Assembly: GCA_011033025.1 (NCBI GenBank)
Contig: WFMF01000044.1
Coordinates: 186,001-250,000, forward strand
Reading direction: 5' to 3'
Length of the DNA stretch: 64,000 bases
Source: Beroe forskalii
Lineage: Eukaryota; Ctenophora; Nuda; Beroida; Beroidae
Shown piece after piece: positions 35,945 to 41,505 of this stretch (positions are counted from its first letter, which is position 1; every line of letters starts with the position of its first letter). Made by a program: the position numbers and the translations under genes. The notes beneath the pieces are model-generated. The model had not been told where the DNA came from. It ran no database searches and saw nothing but the letters and a program-made list of their open reading frames with translations.

Positions 35945-36484
35945 GTGGGTTGGGTGGTTTCGGGTGGGTTGGGTGGTTTCGGTGGGTTGGGTGGTTTCGG
36001 GTGGTTTCGGGTGGTTTCGGGGCTATATTGGGTGGTTTCGGGTGGGTTGGGTGGTTTTGGGTGGTTCCACCTTTTAGTATCAACGAAAATGTTGTAACAG
36101 AGGTGATACACTTTTAGACGATAATCAGATTTTCCAACCTTATCCAGACCAATTGAAAAATTTATTGACAGGCAATAGTATCAACAGTCGAAACTGGGTG
36201 GTTTCGGGTGGGTTGGGTGGTTCTGGGAAGGTTGGGTGGTTCCAGGAAGGTTGAGTGGTTTCAGGTGGGTTCGGGTGGATTCGGTGGTTTTGGGTGGTTT
36301 CGGGTGTTTTGGGTGGTTTCGGGTGGGTTGGGTGGTTTCGGGTGGGTTGGGTGGTTTCGGGTGGTTTCAGGTGGTTTCGGGTGGTTTCGGGTGGTTTCGG
36401 AGTTATGTTGGGTGGTTTCGGGGTTGGTTTCGGGTGGGTTGGGTGGTTTCGGCTGGTTTCGGGTGGTTTCGGGTGGTTCCACCT
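35945..36484. repeat. GGGTGGTTTC satellite, right arm of copy B
   Basis: Two array blocks (35945-36066 and 36195-36484) flank about 130 bp of unique sequence that contains an internal copy of the element terminus (CCACCTTTTAGTATCAACG, about 36067-36085). The same layout is found in copy A, where the second block is about 350 bp longer. Confidence 0.9.
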
Positions 36485-37725
36485 TTTAGTATCAACGAAG
36501 AAACCAGACGGGAAGTTCATCTTACAGGTTACAGGGCAGAGTGCAACTATCGTAAGGACAACAAATGTGGTGGTGTCACAATTCTGGTTAAGAACGAATA
36601 CAGGCAAGGTGTGGAATTCATTAAAGACAAAAATCATGCAGACTATTTGGTATGCAGAATGAAAAAAGCATTCTTCCGACAGGCAGAAGACATTTTCATA
36701 GTAAATGCCTATGTTAGACCTCATAATTCAAGTGGATCGAAAACTGACAGTGGACGTGAAATGATGTCAAAAATTGAGGAAATAGTGAACGACCTTCGGC
36801 TGAAGGGTGACGTGGTGTTATGTGGAGACTTCAACGCCAGAATAGCAAATCAGACGGGCACAATAGAGAATGAAACTAATGACTTCTTACCAATGCCTGA
36901 GGATTATGGGCCTGACATTCATAAACCTCGCAACTCAGAGGACACAGTGAAAAATAGCTTTTGCAAGCAGTTCATAAACTTAGTATCTAATAATCAACTT
37001 CAAATACTCAATGGCTGCACCTTAGGTGACCTTCGGGGTCAATTTACGAGCATTCAACCGAGAGGATGTAGTGTAATAGACTATTTCACAGTCTCATCAA
37101 AACTCCGCCATCACGTGAACTTCATGAAAGTTCAGGACCTCACTATGTACTCTGACCACAGACCACTAGTTATGGAATTACGCAGTCCTCCTATTAAAGT
37201 TGAACCATCTAAAACTACTTCATGACGTACGAGAAAGCATCGCCTAGGTTTATCTTTAACGAGACAACAAGGACAACATTCACAGATTCTCTGAGCAGCG
37301 ACTCAGCAACTGATGCCCTAAACAAACTCAACGCTAATATTGAGACTTTAACACTACCCACCTCATTCACTTATCAAGACAGTGCGAGACCTTAACGACT
37401 CTTTCACGGAACACATACGATCACGAAGAAGTGCTGCATTTAAACAGACCAAAGTCAAAACTCAAGCAAAGTGTCAACAGAAGAATAACCCTGGTTCAAC
37501 TGGTATGAAATGCTAAACGGAGCTTCGTAAGGCTACAAGTATCACATCTCAATTTCCATCAAGCACATTGATTCGAAAAGTTCTACAGAGTGAAGGAACT
37601 ACAAGAAATTACTGAAAAAGTGTGAGAAAGAGTACTTCGAACATCTGAACAAGGATATAGAAGATGGAAAGTGTTGAACTGGCAATCATTCAAGAAACTC
37701 AAACAGCATAAAACTAATAAGCGAT

Positions 37726-38162: not shown

Positions 38163-38830
38163 TGAGCAATAATATACGCTTAGAGCATGGCTGGGAATGC
38201 GCTAATATGTAGTTACATAACGAGCAACAGTGAAGTACAACATGATTTATGCCTCGAGCAAAGCGAGTGGCATAAATTGCATTATTCACTGAAGCCGAAG
38301 GCTGAGTTGAATAATGATTTGTTTTCATCGAGGGCGCAGCCCAAGTTGAAAACAATTTGTTACTTCGCTGTTGGGAGTTATGTAACAATATTATTTACCA
38401 AGTTTTTCAAACGCAAGAAAACATTTTCTTCACTCTCAGCGTATAAATATAACTTTTGTCTTTAGATGGTAGGCTTTACGTGGTGAGCAATATGACTTGT
38501 TTATCAAAGCTTTGATGTGAGGCTCCGCAATAATTTCTATTAGCCAATTTTGAGGGTACTTGTAGGCGTGCAATAATAAGTAATATTGCACTCCTCACAT
38601 TGGCTAATACACTAAGAGCATGGCAAATGGTCATGACGCTAATAAAATTATTGCACTCGGCTTCGCCTCGTGCAATAATTTGGTATTGTCGCACTCGGCC
38701 TGCTCCTCGTGCGACAATACAAATTATTGCACTCGGCTACGCCTCGTGCAATAATTTATATTAGCGCATTCCCAGCCATGCTCTAAGCGTATATTAGCGC
38801 ATTCCCAGCCATGCTCTAAGCGTATATTAT
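38163..38830. mobile_element. TIR element packed with independent hairpins
   Basis: The arm ATACGCTTAGAGCATGGCTG (continuing GGAATGCGCTAATAT) at about 38173-38207 is inverted at 38757-38830, where the right terminus is duplicated in tandem. Inside lie at least eight hairpins with different outer stems: ATTTATGCC (38246-38275), CATTATTCA (38280-38315), TTGTTTTCA (38319-38355), TTGTTAC (38357-38387), GTGCAATA (38569-38593), AAATTATTGCAC (38645-38681), GTATTGTCGCAC (38683-38720) and AAATTATTGCAC (38722-38758). Three share the core TCGGCTTCGCCTC or a variant of it (TCGGCTACGCCTC). No ORF of note. Confidence 0.75.
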
Positions 38831-39041
38831 GCACTATGCATGCTATGTGTGGACACTTGACATTTCATAGAATGCATAGCAATTGATTTAAATCATGAAA
38901 GGAATTTAATTCTGAAAAGACCTTAAAACAATTTATTATGTACTAGCTACAGTTTGAAAATGTGGTTTTAGCTAGACAATGATTGCTATTACCAGCTATC
39001 ATTATCAAAGTATTTACAGCAAGTTGTTGATGTAAACTTAC

Positions 39042-39227
39042 CTCTAATGAGTAATGTACATTATTTATCTGAAATCGCTTTATGAAAGTACTAGCAATGG
39101 TGGGTTCATAGGAATCTGGGAAGTTGTTGTTAACAAACTGGATAGTCAGAGAAGATTTCCCAACTCTGCTATAGCCCATGACACATATCTTTCGTCTCTT
39201 CAGTTGTGAGGAACCATGGTTAGACAT
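39042..39227 (-). CDS. RHEB-family small GTPase, first coding exon
   Basis: RHEB is a Ras-family GTPase that activates TORC1 at lysosomal membranes. The exon codes 62 residues from ATG 39227: a basic N-terminus (KRRKICVMG), a P-loop G.SRVGKSS with the Arg at the position typical of RHEB (where most Ras proteins have Gly), LTIQFVNNNFPDSYEPTI and STF with the switch I Thr. It ends YSLE at a donor GTAAGT (39041). The usual next block would be LVDTAGQ. I find no such exon on the minus strand below 39042 within the window, so the gene is incomplete here, either through a long intron, an assembly join or truncation. Confidence 0.82.
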
Positions 39228-40260: not shown

Positions 40261-40523
40261 AGCAGGTCTGGAGGAACGCCGACTCATCTTCGGCGGACCT
40301 AAGGCGGACTCGCTTAAGCGGACCTACGGCGGACCTAAAGCGGACCTATGGCAGACCTTAAGCTGAACAAGCTTGAGCGGACCTAAGGCGAACCTACGGG
40401 GGACCTAAGGCAGACCTACAGCGGACCTACAGCGGACCTACAGCGGACCTACCGGCAAGCAATCAGATGCTAAGGGCAATAAGCCAGCAAGCAATCAGTT
40501 GCTAATCAGGGACACACGAGGTG

Positions 40524-40530
40524 TATATAA
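40524..40530 (+). promoter_or_regulatory. TATA box candidate of the Merlin transposase
   Basis: TATATAA, just inside the left TIR and ahead of the transposase ATG, the position expected for an element-borne promoter. Confidence 0.45.
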
Positions 40531-40558
40531 GCCGCAGTGTTTTGAGAGATTTATCAAA

Positions 40559-41275
40559 ATGCCTTTTCATTCTACTCAACTGAGTCTCCACGACGAGATC
40601 GTCCAGCTTACCTTGACAGAAGATGCAGCTCGCTCCTTCCTCCTCCAACGGGATGTTCTGAGACAGACGATGACCTGTGGATGTGGTTCTCAGATGGACT
40701 TCATTGCCTGTGCCGCTTCAAAGTCTGCAGACCTAAGAGTTTGGAAGTGCACCACCTGCAAGAAGTTCACCAACATCAGAACAGACAGTGTCCTGGCCGG
40801 GAAGAAGCTCTCCTTCAAGGCAAAGTTTGGGAAGATGAAGAACAACAGAGGGGCTTACAGAGAGGGCATGTGGGTGCTTGGTGGAGTCGACAGAGAGACC
40901 GACGACTGCTTCCTGGTGCCCTGTCCTGGGAACTCCCGCTCCGGTTCTGTCCTCCTCCCCATCATTCAGCGCTGGGTCCTTCCTGGGAGCATCATTTACA
41001 CCGACGAGTGGGCTGGATACAGCAGACTCACGGCACAGGGCTACACCCACGACAGTGTCAACCATTCCATCCAGTTCGTTAACCCTGCAACCGGAGTCCA
41101 CACCAACACCCAGGAGGGGCTCTGGCATCATGTGAAGCGGCAGATGGTTGGGAAGAGTGACCTAAAGTCAGTCCTACTCGACTTCATGTTCCAAAGAAAG
41201 TTCAACACTTCCGCTGGAGAAACACAGATTTCTAATGCTTTCAACGGTTATTTGATTGTTTTGAAATGCCATTGA
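40559..41275 (+). CDS. Merlin/ISXO2-like DDE transposase
   Basis: 238 aa from the ATG at 40559. It begins with a zinc ribbon (CGCG ... WKCTTCKK), as in IS1016/ISXO2 transposases, then the catalytic core: GGVDRETDDCFLVPC (first Asp), IYTDEWAGYSRL (second Asp) and GVHTNTQEGLWHHVKR (HTN.QE.LW, third acidic Glu). The order and motifs match ISXO2-like transposases, and length is near the usual size. No frameshift or stop is seen, so the enzyme may be functional. A TATATAA box at 40524-40530 lies 28 bp before the ATG. Confidence 0.92.
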   Translation: MPFHSTQLSLHDEIVQLTLTEDAARSFLLQRDVLRQTMTCGCGSQMDFIACAASKSADLRVWKCTTCKKFTNIRTDSVLAGKKLSFKAKFGKMKNNRGAYREGMWVLGGVDRETDDCFLVPCPGNSRSGSVLLPIIQRWVLPGSIIYTDEWAGYSRLTAQGYTHDSVNHSIQFVNPATGVHTNTQEGLWHHVKRQMVGKSDLKSVLLDFMFQRKFNTSAGETQISNAFNGYLIVLKCH

Positions 41276-41505
41276 TTGTCAAGTCATCCATGTTTTAACT
41301 TTTACAGAGTGTATCATAGGTCCGCTGTAGGTTCGCCTTAGGTCCGCCGTAGGTTCGCCTTAGGTCCGCTCAAGCTTGTTCAGCTTAAGGTCCGCCGTAG
41401 GTCTGCCTTAGGTCCGCCGTAGGTCCGCTTAAGCGAGTCCGCCTTAGGTCTGCCGAAAATAAGTCGGTGTTCCTCCAGACTGCCGTCGTTATATAAAACA
41501 GATAT

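Follow-up and report, generated by a model that had tools for sequence, protein, structure and literature searches.

Why should a dense group of self-complementary sequences, each with its own stem but all with a similar tip, occupy 668 bp of the genome of the ctenophore Beroe forskalii? The group lies in a 64-kb stretch of DNA, analysed as a whole and referred to below as the window. A first-pass annotation of this DNA had described it as one element made of at least eight hairpins, with outer stems that differ completely and a shared apex. It had offered two origins, a seed hairpin that turns flanking DNA into a palindrome or compensatory selection on a structured RNA. The hairpins are indeed present, and "at least eight" is a fair count (three in a repeat that we call A, three in a repeat B, a palindromic body, and two closing stems), but they belong to these two repeats and not to one element. 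In our best reading, the copies nested here represent two families (A and B) within a large set of non-autonomous transposons.

Positions 38169–38830 of the window form a nest of repeats (table 1) within an assembly of 216 Mb. The nest consists of about the first 33 bases of a B copy, then an A copy cut at 38527, then a second and fuller B copy in the opposite sense, which carries a 33-bp tandem duplication of its own end; 38169–38208 and 38791–38830 are 100% complementary. With a perfect stem of at least 9 bp and a loop of 5–30, six hairpins are found in the 668 bp versus 65 in the whole window. Folding of 38163–38830 with DNA parameters gave z = −17.85 (20 shuffles), and RNA folding of 38203–38527 gave z = −6.66 (100 shuffles). 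The hairpins of the nest are confirmed as real and exceed chance expectation. The stretch 38169–38830 has at least 96 matches in the genome, the A copies often at 94–97% and the B copies at 96–100%; copy counts are lower bounds because scoring was confined to the top 40 of 934 first-look candidates. In the window, the first module of A (module 1) has 187 bp through a 2-base insertion, versus 185 bp in other copies, and its closing stem has a GA/GA internal loop of its own (outer strands 38212–38221 and 38377–38386). Hairpin A1 has the loop AAA in the window copy and GAA in most others, and the apices of the window A copy show three differences of the CG to CA/TG type. Elsewhere A bodies measure 412–536 bp and end in ...GGTAAA-TA (eight copies).

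Table 1. Features of the nested A and B copies, in window positions
Feature	Position	Strand	Basis
First B copy, 5' end (closing-stem strand), cut where A starts	38170..38202	+	Complementarity; other B copies begin TATTATACGC
TA, left edge of A	38203..38204	.	TA before the 5' end in A copies with both ends read (search required TA)
A module 1: closing stem and three hairpins	38205..38391	+	Fold, alignment, end search
Hairpin A1: ATTTATGCC stem, GA/GA, GC inner stem, loop AAA	38245..38277	+	
Hairpin A2: CATTATTCA stem, GA/GA, AGCC inner stem, loop GAA	38280..38316	+	
Hairpin A3: TTGTTTTCA stem, GGGC inner stem, loop GCA; AA in place of the second GA here	38319..38355	+	
TA joining A module 1 to body	38392..38393	.	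Other copies and sequence
A body, begins TTTACC, cut at 38527	38394..38527	+	
TA, 3' edge of second B	38538..38539	.	
Second B body, 68-bp palindrome, inverted ends TTAGCCAAT/ATTGGCTAA	38540..38607	-	
TA joining B body to module 1	38608..38609	.	
B module 1: closing stem (38610-38644 with 38758-38797) and three hairpins	38610..38829	-	
33-bp tandem duplication of B module 1 5' end	38757-38829	-	
Hairpin B3: AAATTATTGCAC stem, GGC inner stem, loop GAA	38645..38681	-	
Hairpin B2: GTATTGTCGCAC stem, GA/GA, GG inner stem, 6-base loop	38683..38720	-	
Hairpin B1: AAATTATTGCAC stem, GGC inner stem, loop GTA	38721..38757	-	

What the hairpins have in common is a structural rule, which on the purine strand reads C-GA-(2–5 bp)-(GNA)-(2–5 bp)-GA-G. 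The word CTCGGCTNCGCCTCG corresponds on the opposite strand to C-GA-GGC-(GNA)-GCC-GA-G, with a triloop on a short G-C stem, which a tandem G-A mismatch separates from the outer stem; the word occurs 675+626 = 1301 times in the genome, versus 0 for its reversed control. The shared apex of the first annotation is thus abundant genome-wide, but as a rule and not as a fixed word. When the inner bases were left free (CGANNNCGNAGNNNGAG), they were complementary in 93 of the 100 matches listed (1.6 expected by chance), forming seven inner stems, and in a shorter form with two inner bases they were complementary in 85 of the 100 matches listed (6.3 expected), a few abundant families weighing heavily among the listed matches. 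The GA/GA pattern has 881+855 matches versus 81+95 for the reversed control. When GA/GA was replaced by a fully paired version, 43+41 = 84 matches remained, versus 107+92 = 199 in the reversed control, and the inner bases were complementary in only three of these 84. Since the fully paired form stays at background, the G-A mismatch is kept, not just tolerated. Freeing both 2-base gaps (CNNGGCGAAGCCNNG) returned GA/GA in 92 of the 100 matches listed, and freeing the loop (CGAGGCNNNGCCGAG) returned GNA in 1301 of 1512 matches. A scan made without a GA seed, covering the window and 38 loci of which 30 were apex-selected, found 27 distinct hairpins with a 2×2 internal loop, 11 of them GA/GA, the next class counting two.

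In the sequences retrieved, outer stem, inner stem, and loop combine in 66 distinct ways (overlapping loci inflate the copy numbers in this tally), involving 45 outer 9-mers and 15 kinds of inner stem. A C-G pair flanks the GA on its outer side in 63 combinations, and the loops are 62 GNA, 2 GNNA, and 2 AAA, a tally biased by the many loci obtained through GNA patterns, so that the free-loop search is the fairer measure. Subtracting reversed controls from two GNA patterns gives a rough estimate of 3,800 apices genome-wide. All these data come from one genome and from loci mostly chosen by apex or family searches, many with patterns containing GNA. Within the nest, the full GA rule recovers four of the six hairpins and misses A3, where one GA is gone, and the middle hairpin of B with its 6-base loop. 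A loose apex rule run over the window finds five hairpins, four of them in the nest, versus 0–4 in 20 shuffles; on 64 kb alone this is weak and no proof, and the strength of the rule comes from the genome-wide tests.

Several families defined by these hairpins have the same layout. A, A' (a sister of A), B, C, E, and H all read TA, module 1, TA, body, TA, where module 1 is a closing stem with one to three hairpins of the apex rule, a cloverleaf when there are three, and the body ends in perfect inverted repeats of 6–10 bp beside the TA. The terminal letters vary from family to family: TTTACC/GGTAAA in A, TTCACCA/TGGTGAA in A', TTAGCCAAT/ATTGGCTAA in B, TTTAAC/GTTAAA in C, TTATATAACG/CGTTATATAA in E, and CATGGC/GCCATG in H. 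By using end sequences read by eye and requiring TA, we found both ends at nine A, two A', four B, three C, four E, and four H loci, the B loci representing three distinct copies by place and the H loci two. For A, A', B, C, and E, flank divergence or nested targets set the 3' end, while that of H was predicted from the start of H and then found; at L028/L029, an H copy, the first matching site probably does not mark where the element really ends. Exceptions to TA are AA at the left edge of two F' loci (L059 and L144) and CA at the right edge of one of the four E copies (L119).

Module 1 measures 185 bp in seven of eight A copies (381 bp in the other, in which a C copy is nested) and in both A' copies, 185 bp in B (218 bp in the copy with the 33-bp duplication), 180 bp in E, 187 bp in G, 186 and 194 bp in two H copies, 150–155 bp in five F' loci and 120 bp in a sixth, and 109–117 bp in the single-hairpin family C. 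Its fold in A, F', G, and H consists of two or three hairpins on a closing stem; in the minimum-energy folds of B and E, similar outer hairpins merge into one long arm. Wherever the 5' edge was mapped (by ends in A, A', B, C, E, and H; by a sharp stop of likeness in F' and G), the purine strand reads module 1 first and the remainder of the element after it. Another type, J, has a less sharp 5' edge, and two others, "GAC" and "GCCC", have such hairpins bounded by longer inverted repeats, their two-module plan not being clear. Families A, A', B, and E have many dispersed copies at 94–100%, and copies are spread over many large contigs. E is a young family, at least 41 of its copies reaching 99% (464 first-look candidates); it begins at the closing stem and finishes about 1.3 kb further on at a palindrome. 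At seven E loci (L119–L125), the frames of at least 140 aa fall outside the element (L122 and L124).

Some copies carry additional repeats. Directly after the H copy of locus L029, positions 1452–1565 hold a single-hairpin module, TA-ATATAGAACTATAGG...CTATAGTTATAT-TA, with a further GA/GA step, so that H may have such modules at both ends. By eye, the A' body at positions 2295–2870 of locus L038 contains degenerate repeats, each about 20 bp long (GTGAAGTAATACG...), reminiscent of the motif of its own hairpin stems, and E has comparable stem-motif repeats near its 3' end (GTGTGATAAT). These repeats are possibly arrays of binding sites.

The genome-wide apex search suggested by the first-pass annotation returned varied, complementary outer stems under a common rule, different families carrying different self-complementary stems around it. 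That these stems "differ completely" holds insofar as there are 45 distinct 9-mers, but 25 of the 45 chain into a loose cluster near TTATnnCAC; the number of groups depends on the cut, with 27 under a loose cut and 11 by single linkage, a recount that takes in one combination more than the tally of 66. Family E moreover resembles B (78% over 72–79 bp), and part of the family likeness is thus descent. Could descent explain everything, one ancestral hairpin having been duplicated into families whose youth keeps the apex common? The cluster of 9-mers and the likeness of E to B are what this account predicts, and yet the apex itself contains 15 kinds of inner stem that are still complementary, GA/GA recurs in the A, F', and H closing stems and is present twice in one hairpin of G. 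We therefore consider plain descent quite improbable as the full explanation.

Insertion sites bear on the proposal that a seed hairpin makes its target palindromic. Each of the three E stems is carried by 21 distinct E copies (28 loci, 7 of them overlapping), although, as these were identified by similarity to a single copy, divergent ones would have escaped. Where A lies in B (L008 and L056), A' in B (L118 with L133), and C in A (L038), the target repeat resumes past the element with TA on each side; the target has not been made palindromic, and the arms lie inside the element. Because stems are constant across sites and nested targets are unchanged, the seed idea fails, and palindrome formation at each insertion is rejected. 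Fixed stems among copies had been named beforehand as the observation that would speak against the annotation's hypothesis, and it is the seed idea only that they remove. The nested insertions fit a TA target duplication; alternatively, there may be no duplication and the TA may belong to the element end.

One nested copy is different. An E element in B (L079 with L132), again with TA on each side, is flanked on both sides by an identical B arm in inverted orientation. We read these inverted arms as a separate rearrangement, possibly the footprint of arm conversion or template switching, and this single instance indicates that arm conversion can happen. Such events offer another account of the hairpins, in which template switching or arm conversion during replication rewrites one arm from the other, so that stems stay complementary without selection while the apex lies outside the switch points. 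Mutations that create and mend stems in this manner are a known type (PMC8794818).

The pattern of stem changes allows this account to be weighed. In an alignment of 23 A and A' copies (23 of 26 rows, identical rows being collapsed and the gapped rows in L046, L103, and L112 excluded), 27 cells were changed on both sides of a pair, versus 7.5 in shuffles and 0–5 in slid structures. The number of pairs with a two-sided change was five versus 3.9 in shuffles (139 of 500 shuffles were as high), and further pair types were fewer than in shuffles. The fold and covariation check proposed by the first annotation thus yields strong folds and an excess of two-sided cells, but a number of two-sided pairs that is not above chance; most of the covariation signal is one subfamily split, and few events are involved. 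In F', a two-sided change is visible by eye (ATAAC/GTTAT vs. ATTAC/GTAAT). The closing stem of A/A' contains a contiguous block changed on both sides (columns 13–20 with 156–163), as conversion would produce. However, among pair states found in no more than two A/A' copies, every change is one-sided (9 cells broken, 3 wobble, and 0 two-sided, a never-pairing position being omitted), and conversion would wipe out the GA/GA mismatches, whose fully paired form is at background. Conversion as the maker of these stems is, in our estimation, very unlikely. We take the one-sided states to mean that compensation is fixed in transposing lineages while single genomic copies decay.

If a strand is kept foldable, is it DNA or RNA? 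The stable tetraloop of RNA is GNRA. Among matches to a four-base G..A loop, a pattern whose total does not exceed the control (2115+2181 vs. 2342+2284), the inner stems were complementary in 22 of the 100 listed (1.6 expected by chance); 19 of these 22 loops are GNYA and 3 GNRA, compared with 41 GNYA and 37 GNRA in the remaining 78. As 18 of the 19 GNYA cases have one inner stem in common, few families may be involved. DNA mini-hairpins with GNA or GNNA loops on at least two G-C pairs are described as extraordinarily heat-stable and nuclease-resistant, d(GCGAAGC) melting at 78 °C (PMC4686876), and the GAA loop is reported to be stabler than GTA (PMC6479982); here, GAA and GTA account for 46 and 11 combinations, respectively.

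These loops weigh against a model in which the purine strand gives rise to a module 1 transcript whose RNA hairpins are selected for processing, stability, or small RNAs. This model would account for hairpins that sit at one end in a consistent strand, for the A/A' covariation and for the strong RNA fold, and it draws something from the excess of G-T over A-C mismatches (19 to 11), an excess that does not decide between DNA and RNA. However, the loops are mostly GNA triloops, the four-base loops with complementary inner stems are GNYA and not GNRA, and the TA-flanked inverted ends suggest a DNA element. Moreover, no Rfam family reached its gathering score in the window and ARAGORN, in its bacterial setting, found no tRNA there, so a known RNA gene was rejected. 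We regard RNA selection as rather unlikely, and single-stranded DNA as the more likely form of the structured strand. The second origin proposed by the first annotation is therefore upheld for compensation on a structured strand, but less so for RNA.

Given the fold rule, the strand that carries it, the layout, and stems that stay constant across sites within a family, we lean on balance towards non-autonomous, TA-inserting transposons under selection to fold as single-stranded DNA. The strand running from module 1 to the body would have to fold while single-stranded, during transposition or replication, and the folded strand might be a substrate recognised by a recombinase or a nuclease-resistant cap. 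Source lineages would keep those changes that preserve the fold, sequence drifting while structure stays, and single genomic copies would then lose the fold through ordinary one-sided mutations. It is the single-stranded step during movement that we infer; TA and inverted ends would also be expected of a cut-and-paste enzyme of the Tc1/mariner type, without such a step. All observations would also allow for a TA transposase that acts on the inverted ends, the cloverleaf then serving another purpose (e.g., protecting or exposing DNA in replication).

Among known systems, MITEs of the Tc1/mariner type are short, have many near-identical copies, insert at TA sites, and possess inverted ends. Our elements are MITE-like: they are short, exist as many near-identical dispersed copies without coding capacity, and have TA at both edges and inverted ends on the body. 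The TA duplication of Tc1/mariner is matched in form, although TA might instead be part of the element end. They differ from MITEs by a hairpin module that stands apart at one end and hardly varies in length across A/A', B, E, G, and H, by an extra internal TA, by GA/GA and GNA conserved on one strand, and by family-specific terminal letters. Like the Helentron-derived HINE/DINE-1 elements, they have a structured 5' end, a palindrome near the 3' end and, in A, internal tandem repeats. In PMC4067079, HINEs are described with subterminal inverted repeats of 12–15 bp and a preference for T-rich or TT sites; our elements, compared by eye with that description, insert at TA and lack the defining ends of Helitrons (5' TC...3' CTRR at an A-T site) or Helentrons (a T-T site with subterminal repeats). 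The genome has 20 Helitron_like_N matches, several of which fall within long open frames, the longest of 2871 codons. At six Helitron loci, no GA hairpin was found within 1.5 kb; eight further flanks from four Helitron loci had one rule-fitting hairpin, about the average genome density by an arithmetic estimate, and two weak matches lay in two of the flanks. Helitron genes thus exist, but no link to the hairpins appeared at the six loci and eight flanks.

Sponge mitochondrial RHEs are likewise mobile-looking hairpins repeated across a genome. According to PMC2800124, their stems are conserved and their loops variable, in a mitochondrial genome, whereas our copies lie on many large contigs and their stems vary between families, so that the features of mitochondrial hairpin elements (RHE or GC clusters) are absent. 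Replitrons, according to PMC10741241, have direct terminal repeats, none of which were noticed here. A virus or prokaryote source was rejected with 0 exact matches in viral contigs and prokaryote genomes to two hairpin patterns, covering only GGC-apex hairpins of the ATTATnnCAC/B kind. Integron attC sites and IS200/IS605 ends are single-stranded sites recognised by structure. In working principle, our hairpins are similar, with one folded strand, a fixed mismatch geometry, and free stem letters, but they are found in a eukaryote whose genome has no Y1_Tnp match (PF01797, 0 matches; the same profile was positive in 5 of 14 control genomes), so that no IS200/IS605-type partner was found. To our knowledge, the GNA mini-hairpin has been a chemical or aptamer motif and not a conserved part of a transposon. 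The apex is of the d(GCGAAGC) type, with two or more G-C pairs beneath a GNA or GNNA loop (PMC4686876).

No autonomous element or recombinase could be tied to these ends through adjacent frames, Helitron loci or the Y1_Tnp profile: none of the frames beside hairpins was recognised as a partner from its first 70 residues, and a frame of 180 aa beside family H has no Pfam match. The titles and abstract beginnings of open-licence PubMed Central papers gave no description of this group, and of six apex words sought there only the 11-letter CGGCTTCGCCG occurs, in 10 papers that by title are on other subjects. We place the group among MITE-like elements with TA sites; a bolder reading concerns its class. 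Tentatively, and with more doubt than confidence, these elements may form a eukaryotic transposon class defined by the fold of one DNA strand, a TA-bounded cloverleaf with GNA caps and tandem G-A steps. It is similarly possible, though we would not assert it, that this strand is recognised or protected as single-stranded DNA, end sequences diverging freely while the fold is constant. Such a class would be a nuclear counterpart, in working principle only, of attC sites or IS200/IS605 ends. Transposon ends are normally read as double-stranded sequence, whereas here a fold on one strand is conserved across families. If true, this would explain how end sequences diverge without loss of mobility, would predict a structure-reading recombinase or a single-stranded intermediate in a eukaryote, and would provide a natural data set on the evolution of secondary structure in DNA rather than RNA; the fold rule could also locate such elements in other genomes without sequence similarity.

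Other features surround the nest in the window. About 110 bp past it, 38943–39227 on the minus strand is part of a gene for a Ras-family GTPase (PF00071; Pfam: Ras family), probably one exon, and possibly from Rheb. Upstream, 36236–37225 and 35945–36478 hold, within a single open frame, the endonuclease domain of a reverse-transcriptase element (PF14529) and a GGGTGGTTTC minisatellite. Further downstream, the ORF at 40499–41275 encodes an ISXO2/IS1595-type transposase domain (PF12762, E-value 3.6e-16; Pfam: DDE_Tnp_IS1595), which may be of the type called Merlin. It is flanked by arrays of 11-bp repeats in opposite sense, GGCGGACCTAA at 40292–40451 and TAGGTCCGCCG at 41317–41428, and the whole of 40292–41428 seems to be a transposon with tandem repeats as inverted ends.
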